A DNA stretch of 64,000 bases from Styela clava (taxonomy: Eukaryota > Chordata > Ascidiacea > Stolidobranchia > Styelidae): assembly GCF_964204865.1 (NCBI RefSeq), contig NC_135262.1:7502001-7566000 (forward strand), written 5' to 3'. Under the pieces are notes generated by a model. The model was not told the origin of the DNA. It did no database searches and was given only the letters and a program-made list of their open reading frames with translations. Positions 3,186 through 51,070 of the stretch are shown piece by piece. Position 1 is the first letter of the stretch, and the number at the start of each line of letters is the position of its first letter. Made by a program: the position numbers and the translations under genes.

Positions 3186-3188
3186 TCA

Positions 3189-7423: not shown

Positions 7424-7436
7424 TTTTTTGTTTCAG
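7424..7436 (+). promoter_or_regulatory. 3' splice acceptor 4 bases before the DTYMK start
   Basis: TTTTTTGTTTCAG is a textbook polypyrimidine tract and AG acceptor, ending 4 bases before the ATG at 7441. No upstream donor exon is evident. In tunicates such acceptors commonly receive a spliced leader, so trans-splicing is inferred; a short 5' UTR exon spliced in cis remains possible. Confidence 0.55.
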
Positions 7437-7440
7437 AAAT

Positions 7441-28826: not shown

Positions 28827-30134
28827 CCAGAACGATGTGGATTAGTTGGAAGAGATAGATATTTTGTCATCCGCAACATAGAATGATAAAATGCCATATC
28901 AGTTTTATTGTTCTCTGTTATGTTGATTATTTTACATTAGAAATTGCTTTTTAAATGAGCGCTATTCATGAGAGACTATCGGACTGCAATATAGTTTGCA
29001 AATTTGATTCTTGAGGACTACTCGCTGCCTGTACTGCCAATCAAGCGTAATTTAAAAACTTCAGTCTTCGCTGGAGCTTTGACTAGATCTTATCATTAAT
29101 AGCTATTCGTTTGAATGACGTATTTGTTTTTGGTACCTCATTAACATATAAACTCAAAATATGTAATAATTTCTCAATCTCCTTTGATTTCAATGTAATG
29201 ACTTCACAGATATAATGATGCGACCATAGAATATAACAGCATTAATATGCGCTGCAAGTTTGTGATCCTCGTAATATATATTTTCAAATATTGAGTGATT
29301 TTAAAGTTCTATATACCGGTAATAGTTTGGCTGCATCAAGTCTAACAAAAACTTGGACAACTTGATAGAGTTTTATTATAAACCTTTTGGTATTCCCAGC
29401 AAGGTAAATGGTTCAATTTGGAATAGGCCCACTAATACAAGGTATCAAAACAATGCGATCAAAATGATGTAAGGGTGCTACTGCCAGATCTATCTTATAA
29501 TAATCTTGCGTAATTTTCTACATACCTTTGGTAAAGGCTCAAATGAGATGCTGGCCTTGATTGAATTGTCAGGCAAAGCTCTGCATTGTGAGGCATTGAC
29601 CACTTTCAACACAGTAGTCAATGCTTGCATCCCCTGCATGAATTCTCTTATTTTTTTCCTAATGTTTCTTTCATTAAGTTATATATTCACATCTAAACTA
29701 TTTTTACCAATATACTTGGAATTTTGAAAAAGCAAGTGAGGTATGATAAAAACCGATTTGCGTCTCTGGGAATTTTCTCTCTCGGAAAATGAACTTGCTG
29801 AACGGAGCTGTATTTTGGTATTAAAATATTTGCATTTTATTTGTAATCTATTGGCGTTTATACCTGTCCTAAACCAAAAAAATGTTCTATCCAATGTAAT
29901 ATTCGTTGTTTCATGAGAATTTACGTAGATTGCAAACAACTTCGTCTGAATTTGGCAGTCGTTATGACGATTCTTTCGATTAACTGAATTTTGGTAAAGA
30001 TTTCACACAGCATCAGGCATAATTGATGAAGTTAACTACTTTGACCTGAAGCTTACTATGTAAACACTCAAGGATGTGCATTATGTTCGAATCTGGAATA
30101 GCATAAAACCAAGTGGGCAAGTGAATTCCATTTA
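28827..30134. other. KIF15 3' flank, no gene seen
   Basis: This region should hold the KIF15 3' UTR. No clear AATAAA signal close to the stop, no RNA gene and no recognisable coding sequence were found. Confidence 0.4.
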
Positions 30135-30462
30135 GGATAGGATTTACATATTTATCCCGGGGGAGAGGAAAGCCGATAAGACGGCTTATCCATATGGCGA
30201 ACCACAGCCTCTCGTCCGGTTACCATTACAAGTCTGGTATGGGATTAGTTATATTGTTTGTTTTCGGAAGCATTGACTTGGTGGTGGAGGAAGCCGTAAC
30301 CGACCAGCGGTTACGTGAACTACCCAACGACGGCGAGGAGTCCAGCAATCCTCTCGCACATAACCATCTCTGCATGGGATTCGAACCTGCGAGCAGAGTA
30401 ATTAGAGGTGCGGTGGCGAGCGTATTCCTAACGCTTAGCCCGTTGAGCCACATCGCCGCGCC
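30135..30462 (-). mobile_element. tRNA-derived SINE, copy 1
   Basis: Minus-strand SINE. The tRNA-like head lies at the right (A box TGGCTCAACGG, perfect B box GGTTCGAATCC). The body contains a GTCTTATCGGC palindromic stretch, and the tail is a short ATCC-type repeat (GGATAGGAT on the plus strand). This copy has lost a few bases between the two boxes relative to copies 2 and 3. The flanking duplication is unclear. Confidence 0.8.
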
Positions 30463-32114
30463 TAATTTCAATAGAAAATGCAAGTCTGGTGTGAGTGCTC
30501 ACCAAGAGGCAGATAGATCAATTAATCATCATTTTATTCGTCAGCACAAAATAAACGTATCATAAGAAAAATACGTTTCAGACACAATGGGAATCTAACT
30601 TAAGTTGTGTGACAGGAGTCGCGAGGGACCTCGTAATGTCTTCAGGCAGCGATCGCCAATATTCTCCCGTTAGTTTCAAACTTGCCGATGTCACATGGTT
30701 GTGATTTGGACATAATGGTGAGAACGACAAACTTGAACCAATGGAAAGATTGCGATTATATTCTAGTAATGTTTATAAAAGATCTTCCTCGTCATTAAGA
30801 GGCGAAAAAACATGAATATCACGAAACATTTCTGCCGCGAGAATTGTCGCTCTTGGTACGCCATGACGTCATAAAGGATTATTTGTCGAAGTTGGTTTTT
30901 AAGCTTGAAGCCTTTGGTAATGATCACAGTGCTGCCTACGCGTTACAGGTCTTGTAAACGGAATGATTGTTATGCCCGAGATATTTTGATATCGTAAAAA
31001 AATTCGCTAAGTTCAGTCGTAAGCTTAGACGGCCGTTTTTAATCGGTAAATTGGCGTAAAGGGTAAACTACCGGTACCGTACCATCGGTCAGTAAAGACT
31101 ATTTTGCCCATTTGCTAGACTGGCCTTTCTTTATGTACTAAGGTCAGATCATGTAGGCAATAGACAATAGACAATAAGTTTATTTCGTCGTGCAAGAAAT
31201 CACAACACAAATTCAGTATTACAGTACACTTCAAATACAGTAACGGATTTCATCGCAATTGACAGGAAGTCGCGAAGGACCAGGAATGGTCATCACAAGT
31301 CTGCGACACCAAGATTAAAAACGAGTCAATAATAAAAAATTGAAATAAGGGAAAGCAATATGCACAAAGAAAAGCTTATCCATTCATAAATTAACCAACA
31401 AGGTTGGTATGAATCATTATATATGATTTGGGAGAGAAAGTAAAAGTAAAAGTCGGGAAAATTCAATTGATATACAGTAATTATAAAAATAAATCACCAT
31501 ATCATTCAGCTGTGTTTTTGTACAATTGCAGCGATTAAATTTTTATATATTGTCATATGCAACATTAAATTGAGCGATCATTTTATTTGATGAGAAAAAT
31601 TAAATTAAGCAACCTCTATGTACGAATTATAAGGCACAATTCATACTCAATGTACAACCATCCACATAAAACTTTTAGGGTAGAAAATAAAATTTGGCAC
31701 CAGGCCGATGTTAGGCGCATATATCCAGATCGGAGGCGACTCCAACCACATCTTAGTTACAGTTGGTTAGCTACGGAGGGCAATCATTTGTCAACGAACT
31801 GGAAAATTGTTCAGGTTGCTGAGCGACCGCACGCGCTAATTGAATCATCCAGTAGGCCGGGCCTCTTTGACAATAACAGTCTGACAAAACCCCTTTGCTT
31901 TTCCGTGCGGACATCCATTAGCGGTACCATGTCTCATTTTGATTCCCAGACATTACGGTACAACAGTGGTGACTTGAATTGTACAAATCTTGTGTAAATC
32001 AAATATTGCACTCATCTACCGACCAGTATGAATTTCATGGCCTTTTCCCGCGAGAAATCGGGCGTACAGTCCCGGCGTGAAAAATTAGAAACCTCGGAGT
32101 GCAATTAGTGACCG
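30463..32114. other. Repeat-derived intergenic DNA
   Basis: No gene was recognised. Two diverged minus-strand retroelement 3' ends are suggested at about 30520-30680 and 31160-31330. Both carry TTTATT(T)CGTC followed later by GACAGGA(A)GTCGCGA. The second has a tail of repeated CAATAGA units, as seen at 3' ends of CR1/L2-like elements. Frames at 31587-31997 and elsewhere look random. Confidence 0.4.
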
Positions 32115-32299
32115 CGACACGCCAAACGTCCGCATGCAGAGATACCGAGATCGCGTGAAAACCTATATTTTCAGCCACGTTCAACTCTTGCAGTCCGCAG
32201 AAATTTTTGAAATAAGTATGAGTAATAAGAAAAAATGGCAACAAAATCAATGTTCAACCACTGAAAATTTCAAAGCAATTGGTCCAGTATTTGAAGTAA

Positions 32300-32520
32300 G
32301 GCGCGAGCCGAGGCCCTGAAAAACGCCTAGAAAGTGAGTTTCGTAGCGCACATCAGGTAACTACCTGAAAATAATTTAAAAATGTTCCTTAAAAATTTAG
32401 TAACAAATATTGCCTTGTTCCCACTTCCAAAAGTTGCACGTTTTACAGAAAAGACGCTTTTCAGGTAGTTACCTTATGTGCGCTGCGAAACTGAAAGATA
32501 AATGGCCTCGGCTCGCGGCC
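32300..32520. mobile_element. Harbinger-like MITE with long inverted repeats
   Basis: Inverted repeats of about 70 bp start GGCGCGAGCCGAGGCC at the left and end GGCCTCGGCTCGCGGCC at the right. Inside they share AGGTAACTACCTGAAAA and its complement. Flanking TAA on both sides (32297-32299, 32521-32523) fits a 3-bp PIF/Harbinger duplication. It is 221 bp and absent from the second tandem copy. Confidence 0.7.
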
Positions 32521-33001
32521 TAAAGAGAAAAGCGATTTCAACATGACGAAGGAGAAAAAGAACAACAACATAATATTGAAACGATCGTTGTGTACACTGA
32601 CGTGTCCAAAAACAAGTATAAAATTATTTGGACGAAACAGTGCAACCAACGACTACCAGTGCAACTGATTGCTTTGACGCAAACCACGGTGACGATGCGT
32701 ATTTTTGTTTAGGTCAAAGGTCAAATAATTGACGCGAACAAAACGCAAACAGGCTAAAAAGCCTTGCGTTTCAAGACTGGTCTATTTACAGATTTAGTTG
32801 ATAATCGTCATGTTTTTGGCGCGCTTTTGAGTTCGCTATTTGATTAAGGCGTATAATTAAGCACTAGCCTAGTATTGTAACCTGAATTTGCAGAAGGCCT
32901 GAAGTACGGTATGCCAGATGGAGACGACGAGGAGGAGGCAAATGAAGAAAGTGATAGAATGGAAGAAGAAGAAGAATTTGTAGAACACGTAAATACTTTT
33001 A

Positions 33002-33353
33002 GGATAGGATAGGATAGGATTTACATATTTATCCCGGGGGAGAGGAAAGCCGATAAGACGGCTTATCCATATGGCGAACCACGGCCTCTCGTCCGGTTAC
33101 CATTCCAAGTCGGGTATGGGATTAGTTTTACTGTATTGTTTGTTTTCGGAAGCATGGACTTGGTGGTGGAGGAAGCCGTAACCGACCAGCGGTTACGTGA
33201 ACCACCCAACGACGGCGAGGAGTCCAGCAATCCTCTCGCACATAACCATCCCTGCATGGGATTCGAACCTGCGAACCCACGCAGAGTAATTAGAGGTGCG
33301 GTGGCGAGCGTATTCCTAACGCTTAGCCCGTTGAGCCACACCGCCGCGCCGGG
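33002..33353 (-). mobile_element. tRNA-derived SINE, copy 2, inside LINE ORF1
   Basis: Minus-strand copy. The complement of the B box is at 33259-33269 and of the A box at 33328-33338. The tail is GGATA repeats at the left. Flanking CTTTTA (32996-33001 and 33354-33359) is the target duplication, and its placement restores the ORF1 frame exactly. Confidence 0.88.
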
Positions 33354-33736
33354 CTTTTAACATCAAATTTCCCTACAACAGATGGTTGAAAAGAGAAGAA
33401 ATAAAGAAATTGATATATGATCAAACGGCAATAGGAAGCATATCTAGCATATACTTTTTGGATAAGAAGAGCTGCTGGAGGATCAAATTGAAAACCAAAG
33501 AATTCTATGATAAAATAATCAAAAATGGAATTTCATACAAACACCAGGAAAATGTATACAATGCCAAACCAGAAGAGGTATATTCTAATGCCACTGAGGT
33601 AACACTCAGCTATGTACCTGTGGAAGTACCAGACAACACAATTAATAAAATTTTATCAAAATTTGGGGAGATAAAGTCGTTCAACAGATATTTGGACGAT
33701 GATGGTACGGAAAACGGAATCAGAAAGTGCAAAATA

Positions 33737-34088
33737 GGATAGGATAGGATTGGATTTACATATTTATCCCGGGGGAGAGGAAAGCCGATAAGACGGCTTA
33801 TCCATATGGCGAACCACGGCCTCTCGCCCGGTTACCATTCCAAGTCGGGTATGGGATTAGTTTTTACTGTATTGTTTGTTTTCGGAAGCATGGACTTGGT
33901 GGTGGAGGAAGCCGTAACCGACCAGCGGTTACGTGAACCACCCAACGACGGCGAGGAGTCCAGCAATCCTCTCGCACATAACCATCCCTGCATGGGATTC
34001 GAACCTGCGAACCCACGCAGAGTAATTAGAGGTGCGGTGGCGAGCGTATTCCTAACGCTTAGCCCGTTGAGCCACACCGCCGCGCCAA
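33737..34088 (-). mobile_element. tRNA-derived SINE, copy 3, inside LINE ORF1
   Basis: Nearly identical to copy 2 and in the same orientation. Flanking CAAAATA (33730-33736) and CCAAATA (34089-34095) form an imperfect 7-bp duplication. Removing the SINE with one copy keeps ORF1 in frame. Confidence 0.85.
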
Positions 34089-35505
34089 CCAAATAATCAT
34101 GCATAGTGACATTCCACCAATAGTCAGACTTCCAAGTAGCTGTACAGGTGATGAATTTGGGGTTTATTACACCACAAGACCAGCTAACTTGAGGAAATTT
34201 GACAATTGGTGTTACATATGCCATTCTCTAAGTCACGAAGTGGAGGCTTGTCCAAGACGAAGGAAATGCAAATATTGTGGAGGAAAAGGAAAACCCCATT
34301 TAGAGAAAGATTGTATTGAGAAAAAACAAATCCAAAAAAGTCAAAATGCTAATCAAGAAAATACTGAAAATACAGATACGTCAAAATCTTATGAAAGAGC
34401 TGCCAGAGATCAAACCGTTTCCGTAATCAGTGAAATAACAAAAGAATTACAGAAACAAACAAGTGTAAACAAACAAAATACACAGTCACCATCAACAAAA
34501 ACTGGAAATAAAAATATATCCCAGAATAATGCCGGAGTCTCAAACTCAGGGCAAGAAATAACTAGAGGGAATCCAATAAATAACGTTGAGATGAGAAATA
34601 CAATACAAAAAACAATAAATCCTGAATCCTCGAAGAAAATAACAAATACCACAATAGATACTAGGTCAGCAAATAGCAATGTTGCGAAGATAAATCCCAG
34701 GAAGGACAAGAGCGCCGAGAATAAACCAGACTCATCAATGGAAGCCACTGAAACTGAAAATATGTTAACAGCCAGCAACCAGTCGGAGAACAAGAATGAA
34801 ATTCTACTCATTGGCGACTCCCAGATGGCGCACATGCAAAGAAAAATTAAAAACAAAAAGATTATAAAAAGAACTTACTCAGGAGGAACTTTTGAACGCA
34901 TAACCTTCGAAATAGAAAATGAACAAAGGAAATTTGGAAAAATTGTTGTTTATGCAGGTACAAACGATACCCATAAAACAGACGACGAAATTAAACAAGA
35001 TATACGGGAAATGATACACAAAGCAAGGGAATATAGTGACAATGTTTATATCTGTGGCATCATACCAATTCATGGAAGAAGTGCTGGTAAATATGGTTGT
35101 GACAGGATTAACAAACAACTTGAAAAAGAAGCACTGAAACAAGGAGTAGTATTTGTCCCAAAACCAGATTCTTTCTCAGAAGAAAAAATCATGGACAGCT
35201 ATTATTTAGATGATATGATGCATCTCAGTGCAACAGGAGCGGAAGTAGTCATCGAAAATATAAACGAATATGTGACACTTAGAGAACCAAAGCTAAAAAG
35301 GGCGACAGACGACAGCCCTCCAATAGCCAAGAAGCATGTGAAAAAATACCAACATGCATTGGATAAAACTGGAAGTTGAAACTCAACTACACTGATACAT
35401 GCAATTTGATAGCCCACATTAGCTCGTATTAGAAGTGAAGTATTTTTTTGCTTTCATAGGGAGATATTATCATAGTTTTCTTTTTCTTCATACAGGATAC
35501 ACATC

Positions 35506-38500
35506 ATGCATTTTAAAGAGGGAGTAAAGGTTTTAACTTATAACGTTAAGGGAATTCGAAACATGGCTAAAAGAAAATCAATTTTTGAATTTTTAAAAAG
35601 GGGAAAATCAGACATAATTTGCCTGCAAGAAACGCATTGTGGGTCAGATGAAGAAGCAGACGATTGGACAAAGGAATGGGGGAATAACGCATTTTGGTCC
35701 GTAAGTTCTAATATAACATGTGGTGTAGCAATTTTATTTTCAAGTAAAATGGATTCAGACTTATTTATTAAAGAAATTGACATAAATGGTAGATATATAA
35801 TTTTGACTTGGCAATCATCTGAATCTCTCCATATGTTAATAAATATATATGCACCAAATTCTTGTAGGGATAGAAAAGAATTTTTTGAGTTTATTGATAG
35901 TAAAATTGAATTTTATATAAGTTTGTTAACAACTCCACTATATCAAATTTGGCTGGGAGGTGACTTTAATTGCGTGTTAGATAAACTAGATAAATACCCG
36001 GAACAAAATTTCAGAAGAGATAATAGTATTGTAAAATTGGAGGAAATTATAGATAAATGGAATCTTGTTGATATTTGGCGTCATTTAAATTTAAATTCTA
36101 AAGTATATACATGGAAACAAAAAAGAGGCTGTTCGCGAATGGCCCAGAGTCGTTTAGATAGATGGTATTTATCTTCAAATCAAATCTATAATGTTATTAG
36201 AACAGATGTTGAAATGGCCACCTTTTCTGACCACTATCCATTTCAAATTGTTACTTCATCCTTTAAAAATGTAAAAAGAGGACCGGGTTATTGGAAATTT
36301 AATGCACAACTGATTGAATTTGAGTATTTTATCCTGGGAATTGAATCAATACTACAGGCATGGCATTTTAAATTATGTAACTTGGATGATGCAGAAAAGG
36401 GAGCTTTTTGGGACACATGTAAATCCAAAATAAAAATATGGGCAATCCATTGTAGTAAAATAAAAAAAGAATCAGACAATCAAAGGGAAGATAAATTACT
36501 AGTAAAATATAGAGAAGCATACAGGGAAATGCAAGATAATATAGAGGATGAGGACACTCATCAAGCAATACATGATACAGAATTAGAAATTAAGGAGTAT
36601 TATGAACAAAAATCCAAGGGGGCAATAATTAGGGCTAGAGTTAATTGGGCGGAAAAAGGGGAAAAATCGAATAAATATTTTTTGAATTTAGAGAAATCTA
36701 AAGGTAAAGCAAAAATGTTCAAATCTTTGAGGAAATCTGACAACTCTTTAGTTTATACATGTAAAGAAATTCAGGAAGAACAGGTCCAATTTTATAAAAA
36801 TCTGTATCAAAGTGATGAAAATTTGGACGTTAATATTCAAAATTATTTATTAAATAATTATCAGCAAAAAGTGTCAGATGAGCAAAAACAAGAAATGGAT
36901 AACGATTTAACAGAAGAGGAATTGGAAAATGCGTTCAAACAAATGAAGTTAAATAAATCCCCCGGCCTAGATGGTTTAACAAAAGAGTTTTATGTCAAAT
37001 TTTGGAAACAATTGCGCCCAATTCTCTTACTAATCTATAATAGTTATCATAAACAATCATGTCTGTCTCAGAACACAAGTCTTGGTGTAATAACTTTACT
37101 TTATAAAAAAGGAGATAAAAATGATATAAAAAATTGGAGACCTATTACTCTACTTAATTTCGAATATAAATTAATCGCAAAAGTTTTAGCTTTGAGAATG
37201 AAAGCAGTACTGCCTGATATAATAAATCATGACCAAACAGGATTTATTGAAGGAAGAACGATTCATGAAAATTTATTAACAATAAGAGATGACATTTTTT
37301 GGGCGAATAAACAAAACCAACCGTTAATAATTTTTAGTATAGACCAAGAAAAGGCTTACGATACTGTTGATAGAGTTTTGTTACTAAGAATATTAAAAAA
37401 AGTTAATTTTGGTAATTATTTCATTCGATGGGTCAATACCCTATTTAACAACACCAATGCAAAAATAATAACAAATGGATTTTTATCAAAGCAATTTAGT
37501 ATAACACGAGGAGTTAGACAAGGTTGCCCCCTTGCCCCACTTTTATATATTATAATGTCCGAATTGTTAGCATCCAGCATCAGATACAATAGAGCAATAA
37601 TAGGTTTTCAAAATTGTGCAGGAGATAGAGAGAAATATAAAGGTTTTGCGGATGACACTATTGTCACAGTAGAAAGTTTATCCTCCATAGATGAAGTATT
37701 AAAATTAATGGCAGAATTTGAAAAAGCTACAGGCTTGAGAATAAATATTCCAAAATGCAACATAATGTTGTGTGGGTCAGCAAAACGGCTAAACTTAGGA
37801 CCTTCATACAAGGGTATTCAAATTCAAGAAGAGCTTAAAATTCTAGGAGCTTATATAGGAAACAATGTTGTATCAAGAGATAAAAACTGGTTGAAAATCA
37901 TTAACTCAATTCAAAATGTAGTAAATTTATGGCAGGGACGAAAGTTATCAATGATAGGAAAAATTATTATTGTCAAATCATTAATGTTATCCAAAGTGTG
38001 GCACATTGCCAATTTTGAAATTATGCCAGGAAACTTCGTTCGAAAATTAGAATCTATAATATGGAAATTCATTTGGAATAATAAAACTCAACTAGTGTCA
38101 AGACAAATTACATCTAATATTTTCACATCCGGAGGTTTGAATATGTTAGACCTCAGGAGCCAAATAAAAGCTCTTCAGGTCAAATGGATTTTTAAAATCC
38201 TCAAAAACGAGAGTAGGCCATGGAGTAAAAGAGCCAATTATTTTATTAATAATTATTGTAATATTTTGTCCAAAGATAATTTGGAATGTCTGTATTTGAA
38301 AGTCCAATTTGACAAAGTAACTACCATACCTAATTTTTATACCGCCATTATCAATTCATTCAAGGATATTAAGTTGGAGAGAAATCATCCCTTTAATATT
38401 ACAGAGGTTAAAAATGAAATTTTATGGTACAATCCCTTAATCTCAGAGCAAAATTATAGATTTTCGTCCAAATGGATCCAAGCAAAAGTCATTTCTGTGG

Positions 38501-39306
38501 CTGATATTGTGGATAACACTGTGCATTATTTAACAAATAGAATATATTCTATTGATCAAATTGGGGATCACAGAAGAAAGCTCTTTTATTTAAATAGATG
38601 CTCTAGTGAAATCCAACAGGTTTGGGGCAATCTACCTATTAGCTGGAAAGAAATTCTATCGAGAAATCATAATTTACCCGAAAACAGACTTGGAATCGAT
38701 AGATATATGAACTCCAATTTATCCACCAAAAAAATAAGTAGTTTATTGAAAATAAGGAAAATCACAGAAATTGCTACACAGCATGATATGTACATTACAC
38801 AAAAATTAAATTTGAATATTCCTATAGACTGGTCAAATATTTGGCAATATAAACTCTCAAATAAATATAAAATTCTAAGTTGGAAAATTTTACATAATGG
38901 TTTACCTACGGGGGACAAATTAAAATATTGGTTTGATGATGAGAATGGACAATGTGTATTTTGTAATGAAAATGAAGAAACCTGTATACATTTATTTTGT
39001 TATTGTGATTGGATAATTGACTTTTGGCAGTGGTGCAATGTAAGGGAAATCAATTGTGACATAATTATTGCTAATAATATTCATAGTGAAGTGGTATCAT
39101 TAATCATTCAATGTGGAAAATCAGCCATATGGGAGTTCAGGAATAGTGTCAAATATGATGATGTATTCCAAATGCAATGTAACTTGCGAGCTATTTTTAA
39201 ATGCAAACTCCTGGGTGTAATCAGATTAATGTCAGATTTTGATAGGCAAAAAATATTATCTGACGAAATTGTTGATGAAGTACTACAAAAATCGATAATG
39301 AGTTGA
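35506..39306 (+). CDS. LINE ORF2: endonuclease and reverse transcriptase
   Basis: Intact frame of 1266 residues. The N-terminus is an APE-type endonuclease: TYNVKGIRN from residue 11, QETH at 41-44, a GGDFN block and an SDHYPF block carrying the catalytic Asp-His. The reverse transcriptase follows with WRPITLLN, IDQEKAYDTVD, GVRQGCPLAPLLY and the catalytic FADD at 714-717 (Phe replaces the usual Tyr). Near the C-terminus, CVFC at 1150-1153 with a downstream HLFCYC forms a zf-RVT-like zinc module found in Tx1-like and plant L1 elements. It nicks target DNA and copies the element RNA (target-primed reverse transcription). No stops or frameshifts are seen, so the copy is probably young. Confidence 0.95.
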   Translation: MHFKEGVKVLTYNVKGIRNMAKRKSIFEFLKRGKSDIICLQETHCGSDEEADDWTKEWGNNAFWSVSSNITCGVAILFSSKMDSDLFIKEIDINGRYIILTWQSSESLHMLINIYAPNSCRDRKEFFEFIDSKIEFYISLLTTPLYQIWLGGDFNCVLDKLDKYPEQNFRRDNSIVKLEEIIDKWNLVDIWRHLNLNSKVYTWKQKRGCSRMAQSRLDRWYLSSNQIYNVIRTDVEMATFSDHYPFQIVTSSFKNVKRGPGYWKFNAQLIEFEYFILGIESILQAWHFKLCNLDDAEKGAFWDTCKSKIKIWAIHCSKIKKESDNQREDKLLVKYREAYREMQDNIEDEDTHQAIHDTELEIKEYYEQKSKGAIIRARVNWAEKGEKSNKYFLNLEKSKGKAKMFKSLRKSDNSLVYTCKEIQEEQVQFYKNLYQSDENLDVNIQNYLLNNYQQKVSDEQKQEMDNDLTEEELENAFKQMKLNKSPGLDGLTKEFYVKFWKQLRPILLLIYNSYHKQSCLSQNTSLGVITLLYKKGDKNDIKNWRPITLLNFEYKLIAKVLALRMKAVLPDIINHDQTGFIEGRTIHENLLTIRDDIFWANKQNQPLIIFSIDQEKAYDTVDRVLLLRILKKVNFGNYFIRWVNTLFNNTNAKIITNGFLSKQFSITRGVRQGCPLAPLLYIIMSELLASSIRYNRAIIGFQNCAGDREKYKGFADDTIVTVESLSSIDEVLKLMAEFEKATGLRINIPKCNIMLCGSAKRLNLGPSYKGIQIQEELKILGAYIGNNVVSRDKNWLKIINSIQNVVNLWQGRKLSMIGKIIIVKSLMLSKVWHIANFEIMPGNFVRKLESIIWKFIWNNKTQLVSRQITSNIFTSGGLNMLDLRSQIKALQVKWIFKILKNESRPWSKRANYFINNYCNILSKDNLECLYLKVQFDKVTTIPNFYTAIINSFKDIKLERNHPFNITEVKNEILWYNPLISEQNYRFSSKWIQAKVISVADIVDNTVHYLTNRIYSIDQIGDHRRKLFYLNRCSSEIQQVWGNLPISWKEILSRNHNLPENRLGIDRYMNSNLSTKKISSLLKIRKITEIATQHDMYITQKLNLNIPIDWSNIWQYKLSNKYKILSWKILHNGLPTGDKLKYWFDDENGQCVFCNENEETCIHLFCYCDWIIDFWQWCNVREINCDIIIANNIHSEVVSLIIQCGKSAIWEFRNSVKYDDVFQMQCNLRAIFKCKLLGVIRLMSDFDRQKILSDEIVDEVLQKSIMS

Positions 39307-39768
39307 AGAAATTGAGATTGTCTTGATTTAGGAGGTTTGACTATATAAATGATTGCATAACATAGACAGATTAAATGAAAATCTAGTAGCATGATAGGTT
39401 TTTGAATTTTCTGTCTAATTTTTTTGAAACCTTCTCTTTTTCCATGCTAATATAAAATAATTAATTATATATGTACATAAAAATGTTATATTTATGACGA
39501 AATATGGACAATCTTCAATACAAACGGATATATGACGAAAAATGGATTATCATCACTGGGTTTGATATGTATTAAAAATTGTTTATCCAACTGTTTTAAT
39601 TTTCCTCAATTACCGTAATTGGAACGCAATACATGCAATTGGTTTCCAACAAACAAAAAAAAAATAAAATTATATAAAACAAAAACTGAAAATTTAATTG
39701 GATTCAAAAACATAATTAAATAATTCCATATTGACTCTGGAATTGAATTTGGCAAAAAAAAAAAAAAA
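39307..39768 (+). other. LINE 3' UTR and poly(A) tail
   Basis: An AT-rich stretch with A-rich patches at about 39653-39690, ending in a 14-A run that abuts the right target duplication. Confidence 0.8.
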
Positions 39769-40727
39769 GTTTTTGGCGTTTTGGTGAAAAGCCGAAAGGT
39801 GCGTGTTATCTATAACCAGTCAGTTTCTAATGTCAATACGGTACTTGTTAGCACTGTTTATTGACAGCGTTTTCATTCCACCACCGTTCATACTGTCAGT
39901 GTCAGACAGTAATGGCAGAATGGTGACTGGTGACAATCACGAGTTTTACCCGTGAAAGTGGATTTTCGCTCGCGTGTATTTTCGGGGAGCGCTAGCGTGC
40001 AATTGTCATGAAATCCAATCTGGCCTGTCGGTAGTTATCAAGTTGTATTAAACGACACGCCAAACGTCCGCATGCAGAGATACCAAGACCGCGTGAAAAC
40101 CTAGATTCTTAGCGTGCAACTGGGAGAATGGCTCTATTTGAGAAAAGCCTTAATAAACAAATATAAAATTATTTGAACGGAACAGTGCAACTGCGTGACT
40201 TGACGCAAACCACGGTGACGATGCGTATTTTATATAGGTCAAACGTCAAATAATTGACACAAACAAAAAGAAAGGAACAGTTTCGTACAGGTATAAATTC
40301 TTTCGTTTTAAGACTGATCTATCTAGTTGGGATAGGATTTACATATTTATATCATTGATAATCGTCATGTTTTGCTGAAAAGCGGAAAGGTGCGTGTTGT
40401 CTATAACCAGTCACTTTGTAATATTGAAACCTGTTAGCACTGTTTGTTGACAGCTGTTACATTCCGCCACCCTTCATCTGTTCATACTGTCAAATATAAC
40501 TGTAATGGTGACTGGCTGACTGGTGAACAATCACGAGTTTTCTCTGTGAAAGTGGATTTTTGCTCGCGTATATTTTCAGGGAACGCTAGCATGCTCGGCG
40601 TGCAATTGCCATGTGATCCAATCTGACCTGTCGGTAGGTACCCTATCAAGTTGAATTGAATATTTTTTTTAAAATTCATGTCTTTCATGCGGGTGATGTA
40701 ACAGGTTTAAATCATTTCTTTTTATAA

Positions 40728-40743
40728 TAATCTGTTCTTCCAG
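40728..40743 (+). promoter_or_regulatory. 3' splice acceptor before P450 gene 1
   Basis: AATCTGTTCTTCCAG ends 23 bases before the ATG at 40767. With no intron in the coding region, it implies a spliced leader or a short non-coding first exon. Confidence 0.5.
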
Positions 40744-40766
40744 CATTGTCAACAAAAATATTTACA

Positions 40767-42287
40767 ATGTTTAACCCACTGAACTTATTATCTGCCGAAT
40801 CACTTATCTTAATTTGCACACTTTTCTTGCTTGTGAGATATCTTCTTCAACGCAAATGGAGCATTCTCTCATCCTGGAATATTCCGCACGACCCTCCATC
40901 TGTTAGAAATTTTGGTCACGCAAAGATCATAGTATCAGAAAAAGTTTTTGAATACGAGTTAGAATGCAAGAAAAAATTTGGTCCCATATGGGGGTATTAC
41001 GTCATGACCGCTCCGAGAATTGTCATCCATGATCCAGAGATTCTGAAAGTAATATATATCAAAGAATTTTCAAAATTTCCAAATCGAGTGAATAAATTCA
41101 GACTCGTTCATGGAGAAGAATTAGCAAATGGTTTGTTGTTTACGCTTGATGATCAATGGAAGCGCATCAGAACGACTATGACGCCTACTTTTTCCACAGC
41201 AAAATTGAGGCAAATGGTTGGAATAGTGAAACGGTGTGGTGACGATACTATTGATGTATTTCGTCGCAAAATAAATTCAACAGATGGAATTTTTGTGGCA
41301 AGAAGTGTTTTTGGGGGACTTTCGATGGACGTTGTTTGTGCGGCTGCATTTAGTACTGACGTAAATTCGCAAGACGAAACCAAGATACAGCCTCGTATAA
41401 CAGCCAATGCAAATAAGTTTTTCAGGACTGGATTTTTTCAAGCTTCATTTCTGATTGCTGCAATATTTCCGTTTTTAGAGGGTTTGGTATCAAAACATGC
41501 AAGCCAGAGAAGTCATATTGTGTATTTTCGTGACTTGTGTCATGATTTAATGGAACAAAGACGTAAAGAAAAAGGGGATAGAGTCGATTTAATGCAATTA
41601 ATGTCAGATGCGGAAGTTCCAGAATCAGAATTGAAAGATGATGCTAAAAAGGGAATGTCAGAATTGGAGATAATCGGAAATTCTATCACAATGCTTTTTG
41701 CTGGATATGAAACAACAAGTACAGCTATGTCATTTTTGGCATACAACTTAGCCCAGTATCCCGAAACCCAGAAGCAACTTCAGACAGAAATTGATAAAAT
41801 GTTCGAAGAATGTGTTGAGTTGGATTATGATAGTGTAAATCAGCTGAAATTTCTTGATATGTGCTTGAATGAGAGTTTACGTTTGTATTGCCCCATTCCA
41901 CGGAACTCAAGAATCGCCAAGGAAGAAGTCACCATTGGTGGGCTCACCATTCCGAAAGGATCACTTGTAGCCATTCCGATTTATGCCTTGTGTCATGATC
42001 CCGACTACTGGGAAGATCCGATGGAATTCAAGCCAGAAAGAATGAGAAATATGGATGAAATTGACAACATTATTTTCCAACCGTTTGGCTGTGGACCAAG
42101 AAATTGCATTGGAATGAGGTTTGCAATGATGGAAATCAAAATCACATTCTGCAAACTCCTGCATCTATTTAGCTTTGAACCAACAGCTGAAACACCGAAG
42201 CCACCACTGAAGCTTAAATATGATTTGACCACCAGATCTAAAGTTAATTTTAATCTGAAAGTCGTGCCCAGAGATAGAAACCCCTAA
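40767..42287 (+). CDS. CYP3-like cytochrome P450, gene 1
   Basis: 506 residues, full length for microsomal P450s and uninterrupted by introns. Haem-thiolate monooxygenase, expected on the ER membrane with a signal anchor (hydrophobic residues about 10-24) followed by a basic patch and a Pro-rich hinge (IPHDPPS). Motifs: helix C WKRIR, helix I AGYETT at 312-317, ExxR ESLR at 369-372, FKPERM, and FQPFGCGPRNCIG with haem ligand Cys447. The sequence resembles vertebrate CYP3A more than other P450s (for example the IPKG and HDPDYW region). The ATG at 40767 is taken because the upstream frame has no earlier ATG and the acceptor lies between. Substrate cannot be deduced. It is the most diverged member of this cluster. 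Confidence 0.93.
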   Translation: MFNPLNLLSAESLILICTLFLLVRYLLQRKWSILSSWNIPHDPPSVRNFGHAKIIVSEKVFEYELECKKKFGPIWGYYVMTAPRIVIHDPEILKVIYIKEFSKFPNRVNKFRLVHGEELANGLLFTLDDQWKRIRTTMTPTFSTAKLRQMVGIVKRCGDDTIDVFRRKINSTDGIFVARSVFGGLSMDVVCAAAFSTDVNSQDETKIQPRITANANKFFRTGFFQASFLIAAIFPFLEGLVSKHASQRSHIVYFRDLCHDLMEQRRKEKGDRVDLMQLMSDAEVPESELKDDAKKGMSELEIIGNSITMLFAGYETTSTAMSFLAYNLAQYPETQKQLQTEIDKMFEECVELDYDSVNQLKFLDMCLNESLRLYCPIPRNSRIAKEEVTIGGLTIPKGSLVAIPIYALCHDPDYWEDPMEFKPERMRNMDEIDNIIFQPFGCGPRNCIGMRFAMMEIKITFCKLLHLFSFEPTAETPKPPLKLKYDLTTRSKVNFNLKVVPRDRNP

Positions 42288-42698
42288 CTTTCCTCCAGGA
42301 ATACCAGTATATGTATCTCCTATTTTATCCACTTATATGCATGTTTGAATGTAATAGAATCATGTAAAATGAGTTATATAAGTCTTCTATAAAAATCTAG
42401 TCAAACTACTATTCTATCAGGAACTCGACTTGCTACATAGTGTAATTTACAACATGTTGACGAGGCAAATTGAGGGAGTTGCAAAATGCAGCAGAATTGA
42501 AAAATAAGAATAATTTATACTCTAGATCAAATGGAATTTGCTGAATTTCAGCTTGGATGAAACTTAACTCAAATATTTTTATACATTTTCTATATCTTTC
42601 GACTCTGGACAAGGCTCTGCACAATAAGCCACTGATATTGCTATTTAATTTGTAAAGATTGAAATGTAACGTAACATGTATTGTTCCTTGATATTGTA

Positions 42699-43006
42699 CA
42701 GGGGTGTGAAACATTTTTTGTTGGTGGGCCATATAACCAACTTCAGACATTCAGCTGGGCCACACAAAAATTTTTGTTTTTCCATGTACACAACGATTTA
42801 AAATATTCTCACAAGGCAAAATTTAATTTATAGAATAGGAGAAAAAAACATGATATATTTTTACCCGCGTGAGCGTTTTTTAAACATAAACTGTCGGAAT
42901 AGGATTTCATACTTAATAGGGATTAATTTGAGTGTCGACAAGAGCCACACTAAATGGCTTTGATAGGCCAGGTTATGGCCTGCAGGCTGCCTGTTGCACA
43001 CCCGTA
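42699..43006. mobile_element. hAT-type MITE downstream of P450 gene 1
   Basis: CAGGGGTGTGAAACA at the left and TGTTGCACACCCGTA at the right, flanked by the perfect 8-bp duplication ATATTGTA (42691-42698, 43007-43014). It is 308 bp and non-coding. Confidence 0.82.
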
Positions 43007-44993
43007 ATATTGTATATATTTGTATTGTTCTTGTGCCTTGTATGTGTCAAACACACCACTGTTTTCCATAATATATTAATTGATATTTTTGGGCAAAAAA
43101 ACACATGGTTATCTATGCAGGATGTCTTAAAGACAGGATTCAATTGAAAAAAAAGTTAGATGCAATAAAATAATCGAATCCTTTTATTCTCAGATTCAAA
43201 TTCTGCCGTTAATACCAAAATGTACTCGATTCTTTTTTGTGACTTTTGTGACTTGTGACAATGTGACTTTTGTAACATTTGATGAAAAGTTCTACAATGT
43301 GTTCTTAGGTTAGGTATTTAACTTCGGGCAAATTGTTTTAGTAAGCTTAAGATGGGGTTTATTATGGAACCAATGGTTTGGCAAAATGTAACCAATATTA
43401 GAATTGATTTATATTATATTTCTTTTTCTCTCATGCTGCCTTTCACATGATATTAATATGATATATCATATATGTATATTTTTAAATTTCATCTTATATT
43501 GTTTATATGATGCATGCTTGGAACTTGCTCTAATATTTCACTCAAGATGATCTTTACACTAAAAAAATTTGTTCAGTTTTCAGCAACAAAACTATTGCAA
43601 CTTTAAATGTAATACACATTATTTCACTTTCAGGAAATTTATTCTATACACGACAACACATACATGTATTCTATTGTTAATAGGTTGATCTTGCTTTGAT
43701 ACACATAACTATTGAAAATATATCATTTCTTCAGTGAGGTGCTAGTCACCCAATCTGTTTTTACAGTAACAAATACTTGAAAATAAGTTTTACATCTTGT
43801 CAGGTATTAAATTATATGTTTCGAATTATATTATTTGTTTTGCTTCTCTTTATAACATAGAGTATAATATTGCTGTATATACATTTTTTGATTTTTTGTT
43901 TAATCATAACACATTGTTTAACTTCATTTTTAACCCGAAGTTTTCAATTTTCTTCTTCTCGTTTAGTCATTTGCTTGAATAGTAGGGTCCGATGCTGCAC
44001 AGCTGTTTGTTAAATGTATGCTGTGTGATAAATTTAGCACTTACATGGTGTTGTATACTCAAGGGTGTTATTTCCACTTCAGAAAACTGTTCTTCACAGT
44101 AAAAAATTCTTTCACATTTTCTGATTTTTTTTATGAAAGAGATAGGTTTTGAGTTGCTGTCATTTGTTTTATTATTAAGTGTTGTTTACAAAATTATTGG
44201 AAATCCCACATTAGGAAGCTATTAACTGTATTCACATTTTGCACTTTCATTATTTTAAGTGCAGTTTATTATTTGCTAATAATAATCATCAAGGATGTGA
44301 AATAAATATCTAAAGTGTAATGTAGCTCTTACTACTATAGTATTTAGCACTGTATAGCCAAACTAAAATATTGTGTTTATCCATATTGTCAGCATGATAT
44401 TTTTTTCAGGTGGCTCAAAAGAGGCCTAATTGCAACATTTTTTTACACATATTTAAAAAAAATATATAATCATATTATGTTCCTTCCCTCTATATATTTG
44501 TGTTTTTTTTTTGTAGATTTTAAACTTGAATAATGATGATGTACTTAACTTGACTGACCTATTAGAAGAAATCCAGAAGTGAGATTATTCTATTTTTCTA
44601 TCGTGAATAGTACATGCATTGGAAGTATGCATCTTCTAACTCAAATATTCATGATTATATGATACTGAACCATGGATGCATATATAAGCAAGTAAGCGTA
44701 AGTAATATTTTATTCCTGTTCTATTAGATTTCACACTTTCGGGGAAGATATATTTGCATAACAGCAAGTATTTTATATATTTTATTTACCATATTTGAAT
44801 ATAAATTTTATTGGTAATAATCTATGGATTTCCACTTGGATTGTACTTACACTACTTTTACTGTTATGTATCGATATAAAAAGGACTGTAAATTATGTAA
44901 AAATTGCCAATCAATCCAATTTTGCAAGGTTTCTTTTTTTATTTTGCCATAAAATCACAGTTTGGTCAGGTGTGCTTATATATTTATCTAACC

Positions 44994-45287
44994 CTGACAT
45001 GGGCAAGTTACGGCCAGAGGGCCAATTCAATCTGGCCCGCCTGATACTTCCGCCACCAAATTGAAACCAAATTTTGATTATTTAGCGTAAGAAATAGCTC
45101 AAAAAATTTGTTGAGATTGCGATCAGATTTAGGTTTGGCACAAGGTTTATTTTTATCCACTTTTGCTTTCGTAACACTGTAAATATTGTTCATAAAATAT
45201 ACCTAACTTTTATGTCACATTTACATGGTCCGACCTTCTAGATGGGCAAAATTTTTGGCCCTTCGTCGAAAACCTTGCCCACTCCTG
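44994..45287. mobile_element. hAT-type MITE upstream of P450 gene 2
   Basis: CTGACATGGGCAAG at the left and CTTGCCCACTCCTG at the right form inverted ends. Flanking 8-mers ATCTAACC and TATTAACC agree at 5 of 8 positions, so the duplication is weak. Confidence 0.55.
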
Positions 45288-46315
45288 TATTAACCTCAGA
45301 TCAAGATTTATGTATTTCATGCAAATTTAGTTCCTAATTAATTTTGGTCCTTCTGAAGTATGCGCACCAAGATGGCGCACAACCTGAACTCAGGTTATTA
45401 CAGTAGTTTAAATCCATATTTCTCATTTCAACCCAATATTGCATATTTTTTGAAAAGCTATGAATTTTACTGTATGCTAAACTTGAATCGATTAAAATTT
45501 AGTAAAAATATTTCATTTGAATGAATAGACATATTTTGTTAACAACACTCCTACTCTCCTAGTATACAAATCTGATATTAAATTAATAATACTGGCGGTT
45601 GTTTACCTTGAAACCTAACTATTGTTTTTGACATGTACCGGTAATACTTTTCAACCTTATAAAAAACCTTTTGTGATAATCTGTATTGTAGATTTATATC
45701 AGACTTGAAAGAGATTTTTTTTCCATCCATTATAATATTAGGTATAAAGAGTTAAATCAAATATTATTTTTCATTATACAATCCTCAGAATACATGTTAA
45801 TTTTCACTGATTGAGGTTATTGTATTGGGAATTTGTTGCTGCCCCATATTAGATATTGAAATTGGGCTATTTGTTAGTAAAAAGTGTTATCTATTATGCA
45901 CCTTTCAACATACCTAAGTCAAACTGGATTTGGTAGTATTTGATGAGGTTGACTTGTCAAAATTTTTCAGCCATGTACCTTGACAGTTGACATATATTGG
46001 TAGTATTTTTTGTTGTAATCATTACTCTTATTAACATTTTTGGCAACTACCGTAGTTTTCCTCAAGTTTAATGCATTTGCCATCAAAATTTTATTCTCCA
46101 TACCCATTTTTGGCTTTGTTTAGTTCAATTTTTTTGATAAATTTGTTTTCACCTGATATGCTTTGGTTCCAAAAATCTTGTAATTACATACTGTAGTCTG
46201 TATTGGTTTATAAAGTCAATTCAAAACTCCAGAACAATATTTTTGGCATTAACTCCGACTGCTCAGTATAAGCAAGAAAGGTAGCCGATTTTTAACCCCT
46301 GTAAATAATACTTGT

Positions 46316-46327
46316 GTTTATTTTCAG
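46316..46327 (+). promoter_or_regulatory. 3' splice acceptor before P450 gene 2
   Basis: TTTATTTTCAG ends 22 bases before the ATG at 46350, repeating the arrangement seen at genes 1, 3 and 5. Confidence 0.5.
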
Positions 46328-46349
46328 AAAATTACTACCTATCATAATT

Positions 46350-47885
46350 ATGCAATATTTTTTTGAATATTTGTCCTTTGAAACATGGATACTATTAGGC
46401 TCTTTGATCCTGTTGGCAAGATATTATATTCAACTAAAATGGAGTATGTTGGACAGCCTGCATATTCCACATGACCCACCTTCTATTTGGAACTTCGGGC
46501 ATTTGAAGCAAGCAGTTATGAACAGAATTTCCAATTATGACTCTGATCAGAAAGAAAAACACGGTCCAATTTGGGGTTATTATGTTTTCTTTCGGCCTAG
46601 GATAGTCTGCCATGACTTGGAAATACTTCAGCAAATATTTATTAAAGAATTTTCAACTTTTCGTAATAGATTGGGTGGATTTGCGGGTTTAAATGGAGAG
46701 GAAATGGCGAATGGTTTACTCGAAGCTGCGGACAGCCAGTGGAAGCGTATGCGTAAAACAATGACCCCAACATTTTCTACTTCCCGGCTGAGACAAATGT
46801 TTAATATCATTGACTGGTGTACGAATAATACTCTTGCTGTATTTAAAAATACGGTTGACAGGAAAAATGGAGTGTTTACAGCCAAAGATGTTTTCTCAAG
46901 ATTGTCCCTTGATGTCATATGCTCATCTGCTTTTAGTACTGATGTTAATTCACAAGATGATTCTAAAGATGAGCCTCAAATCTCTGTCAATGCTAAAAAT
47001 CTTTTTAAGAATAGTCGTTTTGATCCAACATTTCTTATTAGCATTATGTTTCCATCACTTGGGAGTAAACTTTTTAAATTTAGTAAGAGAAGTCCTCTGT
47101 TTCGTTATTTTAATGATGTATGCAAGAAAATAATACAGCAGAGAAATGCTGAAGATTCTCTTTCAAATCGGATTGACTTATTACAACTTATGTTGAATTC
47201 TAAAGTCCCTGCTTCTGAGTTGGACAAAGATTCCAAGAAAGGAATGTCAGAAATAGAGATAATTGGAAATTCGATCGTTATGATTTTAGCTGGATATGAA
47301 ACCACCAGTACTGTCATGTCATTTCTTGCTTATAATTTGGCTCAATATCCTAAAGTTCAACACAAACTTCAAGCTGAAATAGATGAAATGTATGAAACGA
47401 AAGATTCGCTAGACTTTGACACTGTGAATTCACTTCAATATCTTGATATGTGCATTAATGAAAGTATACGCCTCTACACACCAGTTCCCAGAACAGTTCG
47501 TAAGAGTAATAAAGACATTACTCTTAGTGGTTTAACAATACCTAAAGACATGTTGATTGTAATACCAATTGCTTCACTTTGCCACGATCCTGAGTATTGG
47601 AACGAACCCATGGAATTTCAACCAGAAAGAATGAGAAATGTAAATGAAATGCATCCTATGGTATTTCAGCCATTTGGAAGTGGACCAAGAAATTGTATTG
47701 GTATGCGGTTCGCATTAATGGAGGTAAAAGTTGCATTCTGTAAACTCCTGCATGAATTTAGTTTTAAGCCGACTTTAGATACCCCTGTACCTCCACTGCA
47801 AATAATAGTTAATGCGTCTACCATTCGGCCAAAGGTAAACTTTAATCTTCAAATTGTACCAAGGATGAATCAGGTAGATAGATAG
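46350..47885 (+). CDS. CYP3-like cytochrome P450, gene 2
   Basis: 511 residues, intronless. N-terminal signal anchor (FETWILLGSLILLARYY), hinge IPHDPPS, WKRMR in helix C, AGYETT in helix I, an ESIR ExxR motif, FQPERM, and FQPFGSGPRNCIG with haem ligand Cys449. It is closest to gene 3 (shared EYLSFETWIL start, ARYYI, WCxxNT and CIGMRFALMEVK blocks), so the two are recent tandem paralogues. The start follows the acceptor at 46327 and aligns with gene 3. It is expected to be an ER monooxygenase; substrate unknown. Confidence 0.93.
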   Translation: MQYFFEYLSFETWILLGSLILLARYYIQLKWSMLDSLHIPHDPPSIWNFGHLKQAVMNRISNYDSDQKEKHGPIWGYYVFFRPRIVCHDLEILQQIFIKEFSTFRNRLGGFAGLNGEEMANGLLEAADSQWKRMRKTMTPTFSTSRLRQMFNIIDWCTNNTLAVFKNTVDRKNGVFTAKDVFSRLSLDVICSSAFSTDVNSQDDSKDEPQISVNAKNLFKNSRFDPTFLISIMFPSLGSKLFKFSKRSPLFRYFNDVCKKIIQQRNAEDSLSNRIDLLQLMLNSKVPASELDKDSKKGMSEIEIIGNSIVMILAGYETTSTVMSFLAYNLAQYPKVQHKLQAEIDEMYETKDSLDFDTVNSLQYLDMCINESIRLYTPVPRTVRKSNKDITLSGLTIPKDMLIVIPIASLCHDPEYWNEPMEFQPERMRNVNEMHPMVFQPFGSGPRNCIGMRFALMEVKVAFCKLLHEFSFKPTLDTPVPPLQIIVNASTIRPKVNFNLQIVPRMNQVDR

Positions 47886-49187
47886 TTTTATTGGAGTTCA
47901 CTTCAAATTTCTTGAACTTTTCTTATATATGGAATACATCTCGAACAAGTATTATATTATATATACACAATTAAATTTCTAAATATATTACATCTCCACT
48001 TCATATCAATAACACATACGGTATATTTTTTAAAGGCATAACTCGGGTTTAAATATTTCAGATTCAATGGTACTTGATATACCAGTATTTTAAACTCAGG
48101 GGAATATTTAATAATTCAAATGGTATTTTTCTACTATATTAGAATTATATATATTGGTATGGACCCTCTTCCAAAGTCATTGACTGTGGCGCTAGCTGAA
48201 TAAATTTGTATAATTACTCACCTACATCATTTATCTGTATTGATATGTATCAGTACTTGATTTATAATATTAGCTAAAGAGATACCTTTTCATAACCATG
48301 TAGATTTTTATTAGTATAATCATATTTTTAGATTACTGCCACAAGATTATCAGTTTCATAAATGTTATTTATTATTATTTCATTTTTCATTTGCTGTAAA
48401 TATTGCATTACTTTTTATATTTTATACCAGAATCATAGTTTGATATATTTTCAGCATTAGTGTATCATTAGAATTGTTTCAGGATCTATGTATCATTTTG
48501 CAAAATTATTATTGTTCTTGTTGGGGTTTGTTGCCTTGTGGGGTATTCTTCTCTCTTTTCTCCACCAATAATGGACCAATCAATTCTAACTTTGTAGTAC
48601 TTTAATTAATAAAGTTCTATACTAATTCTCAGCTAAGCTTTCACTGGTACTGAAGTAAATTGCCTCAGTTGTTGTCTATGACCGACTATTCACTTATTTC
48701 AAGTCTTTTATTATTTATTTCACCTTCGTTCCCATATTTCTGAACATTTCTATATTATTTATATTAAGTTTAATAGTAGTAAAATTCAGTCAAAAATAAG
48801 GAATGGCTTGTGACCTGTCGTGAGTTCTAAAAAAGTACAGAAGCTAAATTGTTGGGGCATTTATTAAAACTCATGCATATGCATATTTTTACAGTAGGCC
48901 TTTTAAGTTATTGCATGTTGTTAGAGTAGTACTTGAAATGAAACTAGATTTCTGTTACTGGTAATATATTGTCATGAAATACTCTCAAGTTGGTCACACA
49001 ATACACTTGAAGTTCATTGTATTATTTATTTGTGTATTTGAACTTGTCTTTTTTCACTTGCTCCAACTTGTCAGTATTCAATATGTCTTATGATTTTGTA
49101 CAGTTCTATATCATATGCAAATAAACTGTCATCTTTTTTTTTATCAGTTCACATTCAGTATTTGCTGTCTGTATTTTGTCAGGAATT
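47886..49187. other. Intergenic region between P450 genes 2 and 3
   Basis: AT-rich, without recognisable genes or defined mobile elements. It should contain the gene 2 3' UTR and the gene 3 promoter. Confidence 0.4.
49170..49182 (+). promoter_or_regulatory. 3' splice acceptor before P450 gene 3
   Basis: TGTATTTTGTCAG ends 5 bases before the ATG at 49188, close enough to suggest a spliced-leader acceptor. Confidence 0.55.
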
Positions 49188-50708: not shown

Positions 50709-50805
50709 ATGGATAAATGATTTTTTATTTCAATAATTACATTTCCCTAATTATGCAGTACGCTATTCTTCAATTATTATTGATATCAACATCACAATTT
50801 CAGTA

Positions 50806-51070
50806 GTTGAAAAGCTTAACCCTTTTCAAGAGTCACTGGCAAATGGGTAATTTATGTTGAAGACGAACACTGGGAACGTGTCAGAACAACTATGACTTCA
50901 GCATTTTCAGTTGCGGTTGATGATGAAAAACGTATTATGAAAAAAATGGAAATATGAAAATTTGATGAAAAGATGATTTTTGGAGATTGTTAGTTGTGCA
51001 TCTGCTGTAATACAGACATTCATTCTAGAATACTCCCAAAAAAGAACCGCAGACCCAGTGTGACTCAACA
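50806..51070 (+). pseudogene. Degenerate CYP3-like P450 fragment
   Basis: The stretch GTTGAAAAGCTTAACCC at 50806 and GTCAGAACAACTATGACT at about 50880 match gene 5 at its VEKLNP and VRTTMT codons. Weaker matches then run through the GDVFG-like and CASA regions to about 51070, with deletions, stops and frameshifts. No N-terminus, helix I or haem-binding region is present. Downstream sequence to about 51460 also resembles the 3' flank of gene 4 (shared CTGTATCATGCAATTTG). The whole is therefore an old, decayed copy of the gene 4/5 unit. Confidence 0.8.

Follow-up and report, generated by a model that had tools for sequence, protein, structure and literature searches.

Does the ORF1 protein of a single LINE family combine the RNA-binding domains of one ORF1 type with the esterase of another? 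The question is raised by a 64,000-nucleotide stretch of the Styela clava genome (hereafter the window), for which a first-pass annotation described an ORF1 with an RRM-like segment, two CCHC knuckles and an SGNH esterase, and noted that this did not appear to be a standard architecture. That impression agrees with the 2013 survey, which called the combination unseen: in its excerpted text, no esterase-bearing ORF1p of Repbase has an RRM or another structural RNA-binding domain (Schneider et al. 2013, PMC3905857). The same excerpt asks whether an esterase and an RNA-binding domain would be redundant in one ORF1p or would exclude one another, and its authors suggest that their combination never arose or gives no selective advantage. 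ORF1 proteins are sorted into Types I-V, and among 448 Jockey-superfamily elements Type IV, the one with an esterase, is given only for CR1 subgroup 7 and L2 subgroup 9 of vertebrates (PMC4120745, as excerpted).

The element, its copies and the ORF1 reading frame

The features of the locus are the following (strand in brackets).

32812-32821 (no strand): left target-site duplication (TSD), GTTTTTGGCG, 10 nt, an exact match to the bases after the poly-A
32822-39768 (+): full-length LINE, including two later SINE insertions; limits from TSDs and from homology to seven sister copies
32911-33001 (+): ORF1 segment 1, with the start codon and coding for the acidic N-terminus (MPDGDDEEE...); sister copies read on from here into segment 2
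33002-33353 (-): SINE 1 in ORF1, tRNA-like head on the right, (TATCC)n tail on the left, TSD CTTTTA; absent from sister copies, edges set by eye
33359-33736 (+): ORF1 segment 2, a domain of ~80 aa followed at about 33590 by the N-terminal part of the RRM (by profile)
33737-34090 (-): SINE 2 inside the RRM, TSD AAATA; absent from sister copies
about 34091-34183 (+): second part of the RRM, from alignments
34210-34251 (+): CCHC knuckle 1, CX2CX4HX4C; Cys and His invariant in the 10-row alignment
34267-34314 (+): CCHC knuckle 2, CX2CX6HX4C; last Cys kept in 9 of 10 rows (exception L039)
34315-34797 (+): linker of variable sequence that includes a short, conserved motif, EI..EL..Q, from alignments
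34798-35283 (+): SGNH hydrolase (esterase) domain; Ser 34819-34821, Asp 35212-35214, His 35221-35223
35284-35376 (+): basic C-terminal tail; a K/R cluster, by a loose pattern, is present in all 10 families whose C-terminus is complete
35506-39306 (+): ORF2, with AP-type endonuclease, L1-group reverse transcriptase (RT) and C-terminal zf-RVT
39754-39768 (+): poly-A tail, 15 A
39769-39778 (no strand): right TSD, 10 nt
40731-42287, 46305-47885, 49125-50708, 52148-53728 and 55962-57539: P450 ORFs, by Pfam p450

In the window, ORF1 starts at 32911, stops at 35379 and is split by the two SINEs (98-100% identical to each other) rather than forming one open frame. The seven other copies of the family include six (L021-L026) in which ORF1 is a single open frame of 579-585 codons, L027 being broken, and the intact order is acidic N-terminus, ~80-aa domain, RRM, two CCHC knuckles, variable linker, SGNH domain and basic tail. 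The single ORF1 that had been inferred from the window is therefore right; the statement that RRM, knuckles and esterase share one frame holds for these near-identical sisters, but not for the interrupted window copy. The interruption by two SINEs is what could suggest that the combination is an artefact of separate ORFs or of a chimaeric or decayed copy. As six of the seven sisters, on other contigs, have one open ORF1 and divergent families repeat the architecture, we consider such an artefact extremely improbable, and two adjacent ORFs or a decayed chimaera are rejected on the same grounds. By eye, and from a similar ORF translation, a further copy of this SINE family lies at 30125-30565.

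Querying the 376.6-Mb genome with the esterase gave at least 52 matches, eight places among them (window included) representing the window family, and seven of these eight are 100% identical over 193 aa. At the DNA level the copies of the family are ~98.3-99.4% identical to L021 in long aligned pieces, the window copy aligning at 99.4% (5679 nt), 100% (383 nt) and 95% (145 nt). TSDs of 7-10 nt flank four of the eight copies (window, L025, L026 and L027) at unrelated sites; for L021-L024 simple matching at the expected positions gave none that reached 7 nt. Site-specific insertion is rejected, since the TSDs of those four copies have no sequence in common. Judged from the TSDs, the poly-A tail and copies that are ~98-99% identical, the window family is young and recently copied, and TSDs together with a poly-A tail suggest that it moved by target-primed reverse transcription.

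Diverged direct repeats flank the LINE (32115-32750 and 39778-40640), which suggests a duplication, older than the LINE insertion, of the sequence that precedes the first P450 ORF, and by eye 40360-40390 resembles the empty site of the LINE. The five P450 ORFs stand in tandem at 40731-57539, with no introns visible and all with a Pfam p450 match. Elsewhere in the window a 72-bp minisatellite, long open in several frames, occupies 3184-6047 (~40 copies) and 532-971 (~6 copies), and a thymidylate kinase ORF, again with no introns visible, lies at 7375-8094.

RNA-binding and esterase domains of ORF1p

Profile searches support each of the three segments, RRM, knuckles and SGNH. A ten-row profile of the RRM matched the solved RRM of RBMS1 (E 3.6e-10) and other RRM proteins. 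When the rows were scanned singly, the Pfam model RBD_ZCCHC3_2nd was found at E <= 0.1 in 8 of 10 (best 1.3e-4) and RRM_1 in 3 of 10; a smaller set at a laxer limit gave RRM_1 in 4 of 5 rows (best 3.6e-7), and both L021, the row for which bits are shown, and the window RRM segment lie under the Pfam cut-offs. The former model describes the second RNA-binding domain of ZCCHC3, a cellular gene (RRM-like plus CCHC) that is not known to carry an esterase. The two knuckles were confirmed at 34210-34251 and 34267-34314; for knuckle 1, Pfam zf-CCHC matched three of the ten rows (E <= 0.1), and the ten-row profile also matches retroviral nucleocapsid. The RRM-like segment of the first reading is thus an RRM by profile, but it is only the second of two N-terminal domains and has SINE 2 inside it. 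The ~80 aa before it (about 33359-33589) are conserved among relatives in the alignment, and no RRM profile matched them convincingly. We do not claim this first domain as a second RRM: its best PDB profile match is to an unrelated chain (E 0.014) and RRM_1 was found in 1 of 8 rows (E 0.098).

At least one RRM immediately upstream of a CCHC knuckle, as the window family has it, is the definition of a Type I ORF1, described for the I, Jockey, R1, Tad1, plant L1 and L2 clades (PMC4120745); in the excerpts of that paper Type I is without an esterase, whereas the window family has one. The EI..EL..Q motif of the linker that joins the two parts (34426-34458) is exact in 6 of 14 rows, variant in 2 and absent in 6 more distant ones.

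The SGNH domain of the window scores 36.8 bits against Pfam Lipase_GDSL_2 (cut-off 32.9), a model found in 9 of 9 rows. Its best PDB match is 4c1b, the esterase of the ORF1p of the zebrafish LINE ZfL2-1, both from the single sequence (E 1.3e-6) and from the family profile, which matched 24 PDB sequences (4c1b at 7.1e-13, the next at 1e-9). As the first-pass annotation had stated, the Ser-Asp-His signature is complete (Ser 34819, Asp 35212, His 35221, with the Gly and Asn also present), and across the families Ser, Gly, Asn and His stand in the conserved blocks of SGNH hydrolases. The catalytic Ser, the oxyanion Gly and the Asn are present in every one of the 11 rows, the Asp in 10 and the His in 9; the exceptions are L039, whose reading frame is lost ahead of the Asp and the His, and L045, where His is changed to Arg. 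L042 and L045, the most divergent esterase group, have TDSQ or ADSQ for GDSQ and, like ZfL2-1, Ser at position 228. ORF1p thus has the SGNH esterase of a Type IV ORF1 and departs from the description of that type by Schneider et al. 2013, with no RRM or other structural RNA-binding domain, as RRM and CCHC are in the same ORF. It shares with ZfL2-1, a Type IV element, the C-terminal position of the domain and the catalytic residues; ZfL2-1 ORF1p is without RRM or CCHC in the excerpts of PMC3905857.

The SGNH fold could instead serve as a non-catalytic platform for binding RNA or protein, as in Oskar. A weak Pfam OSK match (E 0.0053, in 1 of 9 rows) and the RNA-binding nature of the rest of ORF1p point in this direction, but the retention of the catalytic residues in nearly all rows makes it unlikely. 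Single-sequence AlphaFold2 models were poor (pLDDT 40.7 and 46.3), and we therefore build no claim about the fold on them. Where dS was finite, the dN/dS ratio (Nei-Gojobori) was 0.16-0.41 for the SGNH domain (7 of 12 pairs), 0.13-0.45 for the RRM part (7 of 9) and 0.13-1.26 for the linker (10 of 12), the other pairs being saturated; all values are rough, as dS is near saturation. With that proviso, constraint on the SGNH domain appears to be similar to that on the RNA-binding part.

Class of the LINE and age of the fusion

The ORF2 of the window, whose first ATG is at 35506, is open over 1276 codons between stops, as is that of L021, L023, L025 and L026, while the frame is split in L022, L024 and L027. 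The window ORF2 scores 295 bits to human L1 and 80 to R2, with an RT 35% identical to human L1 over 236 positions and a PDB E of 7.7e-87; as a control, the non-L1 LINE L040 of the same genome scored 57-62 bits to L1 chains and 36-55 to R2-named chains. An AP-type endonuclease N-terminal to the RT, a poly-A tail and TSDs are likewise those of the L1 group, and the organisation of ORF2 is the same as in human L1. Human L1 has a Type II ORF1p (coiled coil, RRM and CTD), which in the excerpts of PMC4120745 is without CCHC or esterase.

The RT tree comprised 31 rows, nine of them from elements with a seen esterase, plus L063, whose RT is like that of L037; human L1 was the only named RT, and L039, a fragment without the DD motif, was left out. 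A branch with 100/100 support separates the L1 group from elements of this genome that, from their motifs, we take to be CR1/L2-like and jockey/I-like. Human L1, L047, L048, L049 and L065 fall on the same side of this branch as the esterase elements, the order within the L1 group being left open by the tree, and the esterase elements (plus L063) are split from everything else at 99.3/99. Identity to the window RT is 47-77% for seven esterase elements, 34-36% for three other L1-group lineages and human L1, and 22-27% for six CR1/L2-like or jockey/I-like elements. A position of the RT inside the CR1/L2-like group is rejected by the 100/100 branch. Of the L1/Tx1-like ORF2 announced downstream of ORF1, the assignment to the L1 group, which includes Tx1, is upheld at 35506-39306 by the tree and the bit scores; the zf-RVT is a domain associated with Tx1. 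Here the element differs from ZfL2-1, whose RT is not of the L1 group. Based on these data we hold with high confidence that the window contains a young copy of an autonomous L1-group LINE, whose ORF1p fuses a Gag-like module of RRM and two CCHC knuckles to a C-terminal SGNH hydrolase.

About ten divergent families of this genome share the ORF1 architecture, and a single clade unites the nine of them that contributed an RT to the tree. The domain order is the same even where identity to the window family is no more than about 20-50%, so that the combination is not due to chance; it is unbroken in L032, L037, L041, L042 and L043 and partly broken or cut in L039, L044, L045 and L030. Among the matches listed, 44 of the 54 esterase loci are preceded on the same strand, at a distance of at most 3 kb, by an RRM-CCHC match, and 44 of the 60 RRM-CCHC loci are followed by an esterase match; many of the remaining 10 and 16 loci, respectively, are short or contain stops. 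At one unpaired locus (C10:5958738) a search outside the 44/54 count found a divergent esterase 3.4 kb downstream. Beside the sister lineages L047, L048, L049 and L065 there was no esterase or RRM-CCHC match among the matches listed, and no relative was confirmed in IMG/VR, in GTDB contigs (49-aa query) or in phages.

Three groups, one window-like, one of L037, L041 and L043 and one of L042, recur in the trees of the RT, the RRM-CCHC part and, weakly, the SGNH domain. In the RT tree the window-like group has support of 89.5/93 and the L037/L041/L043 group 97.5/98; the RRM-CCHC tree gives 98, 92 and 100 for the three groups, and the esterase tree only 71.7/36 for the middle one (L037/L041/L043). 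The simplest reading of these trees is that one old fusion was inherited together with the RT. As the fusion predates a clade within which RT identity has dropped to 47%, the gain of the esterase is not recent.

Origin and possible role of the esterase

Where the esterase came from is less certain. The first-pass annotation had suggested recombination between LINE classes as one source, and this we rate as possible at most: a query with the ZfL2-1 esterase showed no donor, the residue pair H191/S228 is absent, and the esterase tree is neutral. H191/S228 is called transposon-specific in PMC3905857, where the esterase is reported from CR1, RTEX and Penelope-like elements and the double mutation of the pair blocks ZfL2-1 activity. 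Across the 11 rows of the families described here, the H191 position has ten Y and one S, so that H191 itself occurs in none, and the S228 position has five C, two M, two S, one V and one L; the window family has Y and C. The esterase tree, which is unrooted, contained ten family rows, ZfL2-1 and three bacterial segments, with no cellular SGNH protein of an animal, and L039 was left out as truncated. The family forms one group against ZfL2-1 and the three bacterial proteins (90/89); under midpoint rooting ZfL2-1 goes with the bacteria, and under another root it is sister to the family (33.6/68). Read in this way, the tree would be compatible both with an exchange between LINEs and with an independent capture.

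According to the first of these two readings, the esterase passed, by recombination or by nested insertion, from a CR1/L2/RTEX-like element into an L1-group ancestor that had a Type I ORF1. The ZfL2-1 esterase as the best of the 24 PDB matches speaks for this, as does the ZfL2-1 query, in which all eight matches at E <= 0.01, among the matches listed, were to these elements and to no other place in the genome; an exchange of esterase ORF1s between LINE clades has moreover been proposed in the portions of PMC4120745 and PMC3905857 consulted. Against it stand the residues at 191 and 228, and no esterase was found beside the CR1/L2-like elements of this genome, among the matches listed. We therefore treat this exchange as possible without calling it probable. 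According to the second reading, the ancestor of the L1-group clade captured a cellular SGNH gene independently, parallel to the retroelements of rotifers. The missing H191/S228 pair fits such an event, and so do the repeated GDSL captures in other retroelements (PMC5408684, as excerpted): Vesta and Athena of bdelloid rotifers likewise captured an SGNH/GDSL domain, there as a separate ORF3 of LTR or Penelope-like elements and not fused to RRM-CCHC. But ZfL2-1 is still the best solved match, its esterase led to no host gene among the matches listed, and the tree covered bacterial rather than animal cellular SGNH proteins; we rate an independent capture as about as likely as the exchange, at somewhat below an even chance.

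As for what the fused protein does, we tentatively propose, by analogy with known elements, a mechanism in which ribonucleoprotein (RNP) formation is combined with a role of the SGNH domain at membranes; plausible as it is, we would stop short of calling it probable. The RRM and the CCHC knuckles would coat the element RNA to form an RNP, the basic tail, with its K/R cluster and perhaps a nuclear signal, may assist nuclear entry, and the SGNH domain would be a low-turnover esterase engaging a lipid or an acylated substrate. The RNP would thereby be placed at, or released from, a membrane en route to the nucleus, as proposed for ZfL2-1. The ZfL2-1 esterase is real but slow and binds negatively charged liposomes, a binding ascribed to its surface charge (pI 10.8; PMC3905857, as excerpted). 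As efficient retrotransposition of human L1 and of Zorro3 needs ESCRT (PMC5478143, as excerpted), membrane steps are plausible. The pI of the SGNH domain is 6.6 in L021 (the window family, near neutral), 9.1 in L032 and 9.3 in L037 (both basic), 5.6 in L041 and 5.9 in L043 (both acidic), and since the charge varies in this way between five families, charge-driven membrane binding in the manner of ZfL2-1 need not hold; judged from these values, it is at best not general among them. Taking identity and mechanism together, we regard the explanation as a whole as fairly probable.

The literature names CR1, L2 and RTEX as the non-LTR clades with an esterase, and LTR and Athena elements of rotifers are described as having GDSL ORFs too (PMC5408684, in part). 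An esterase ORF is described in two fish L2 subclades, and Tx1 is discussed without one in the part of PMC7140322 consulted; in that of PMC5940361 the esterase appears only among the references. The titles and abstract openings of open-licence PMC papers, among the matches listed, contained no esterase in an L1 or Tx1 LINE, nor one together with RRM-CCHC. An ORF1 class that joins Types I and IV thus looks new as far as this open-licence literature goes. On balance we lean towards an old, undescribed class of L1-group ORF1 that unites Type I RNA binding with an SGNH esterase, possibly captured independently of that in CR1, L2 and RTEX.

If true, this class overturns the conclusion drawn in 2013 that no ORF1p ever combines an esterase with a structural RNA-binding domain. 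It would be a further case of modular, reticulate evolution of ORF1, and it would widen the range of the esterase to another group of LINEs. With both domains in one L1-group ORF1p, kept through long divergence and recently copied, the family offers a testable system, in which removing either function within one protein could show whether the esterase has its role in RNP assembly, in membrane traffic or elsewhere.
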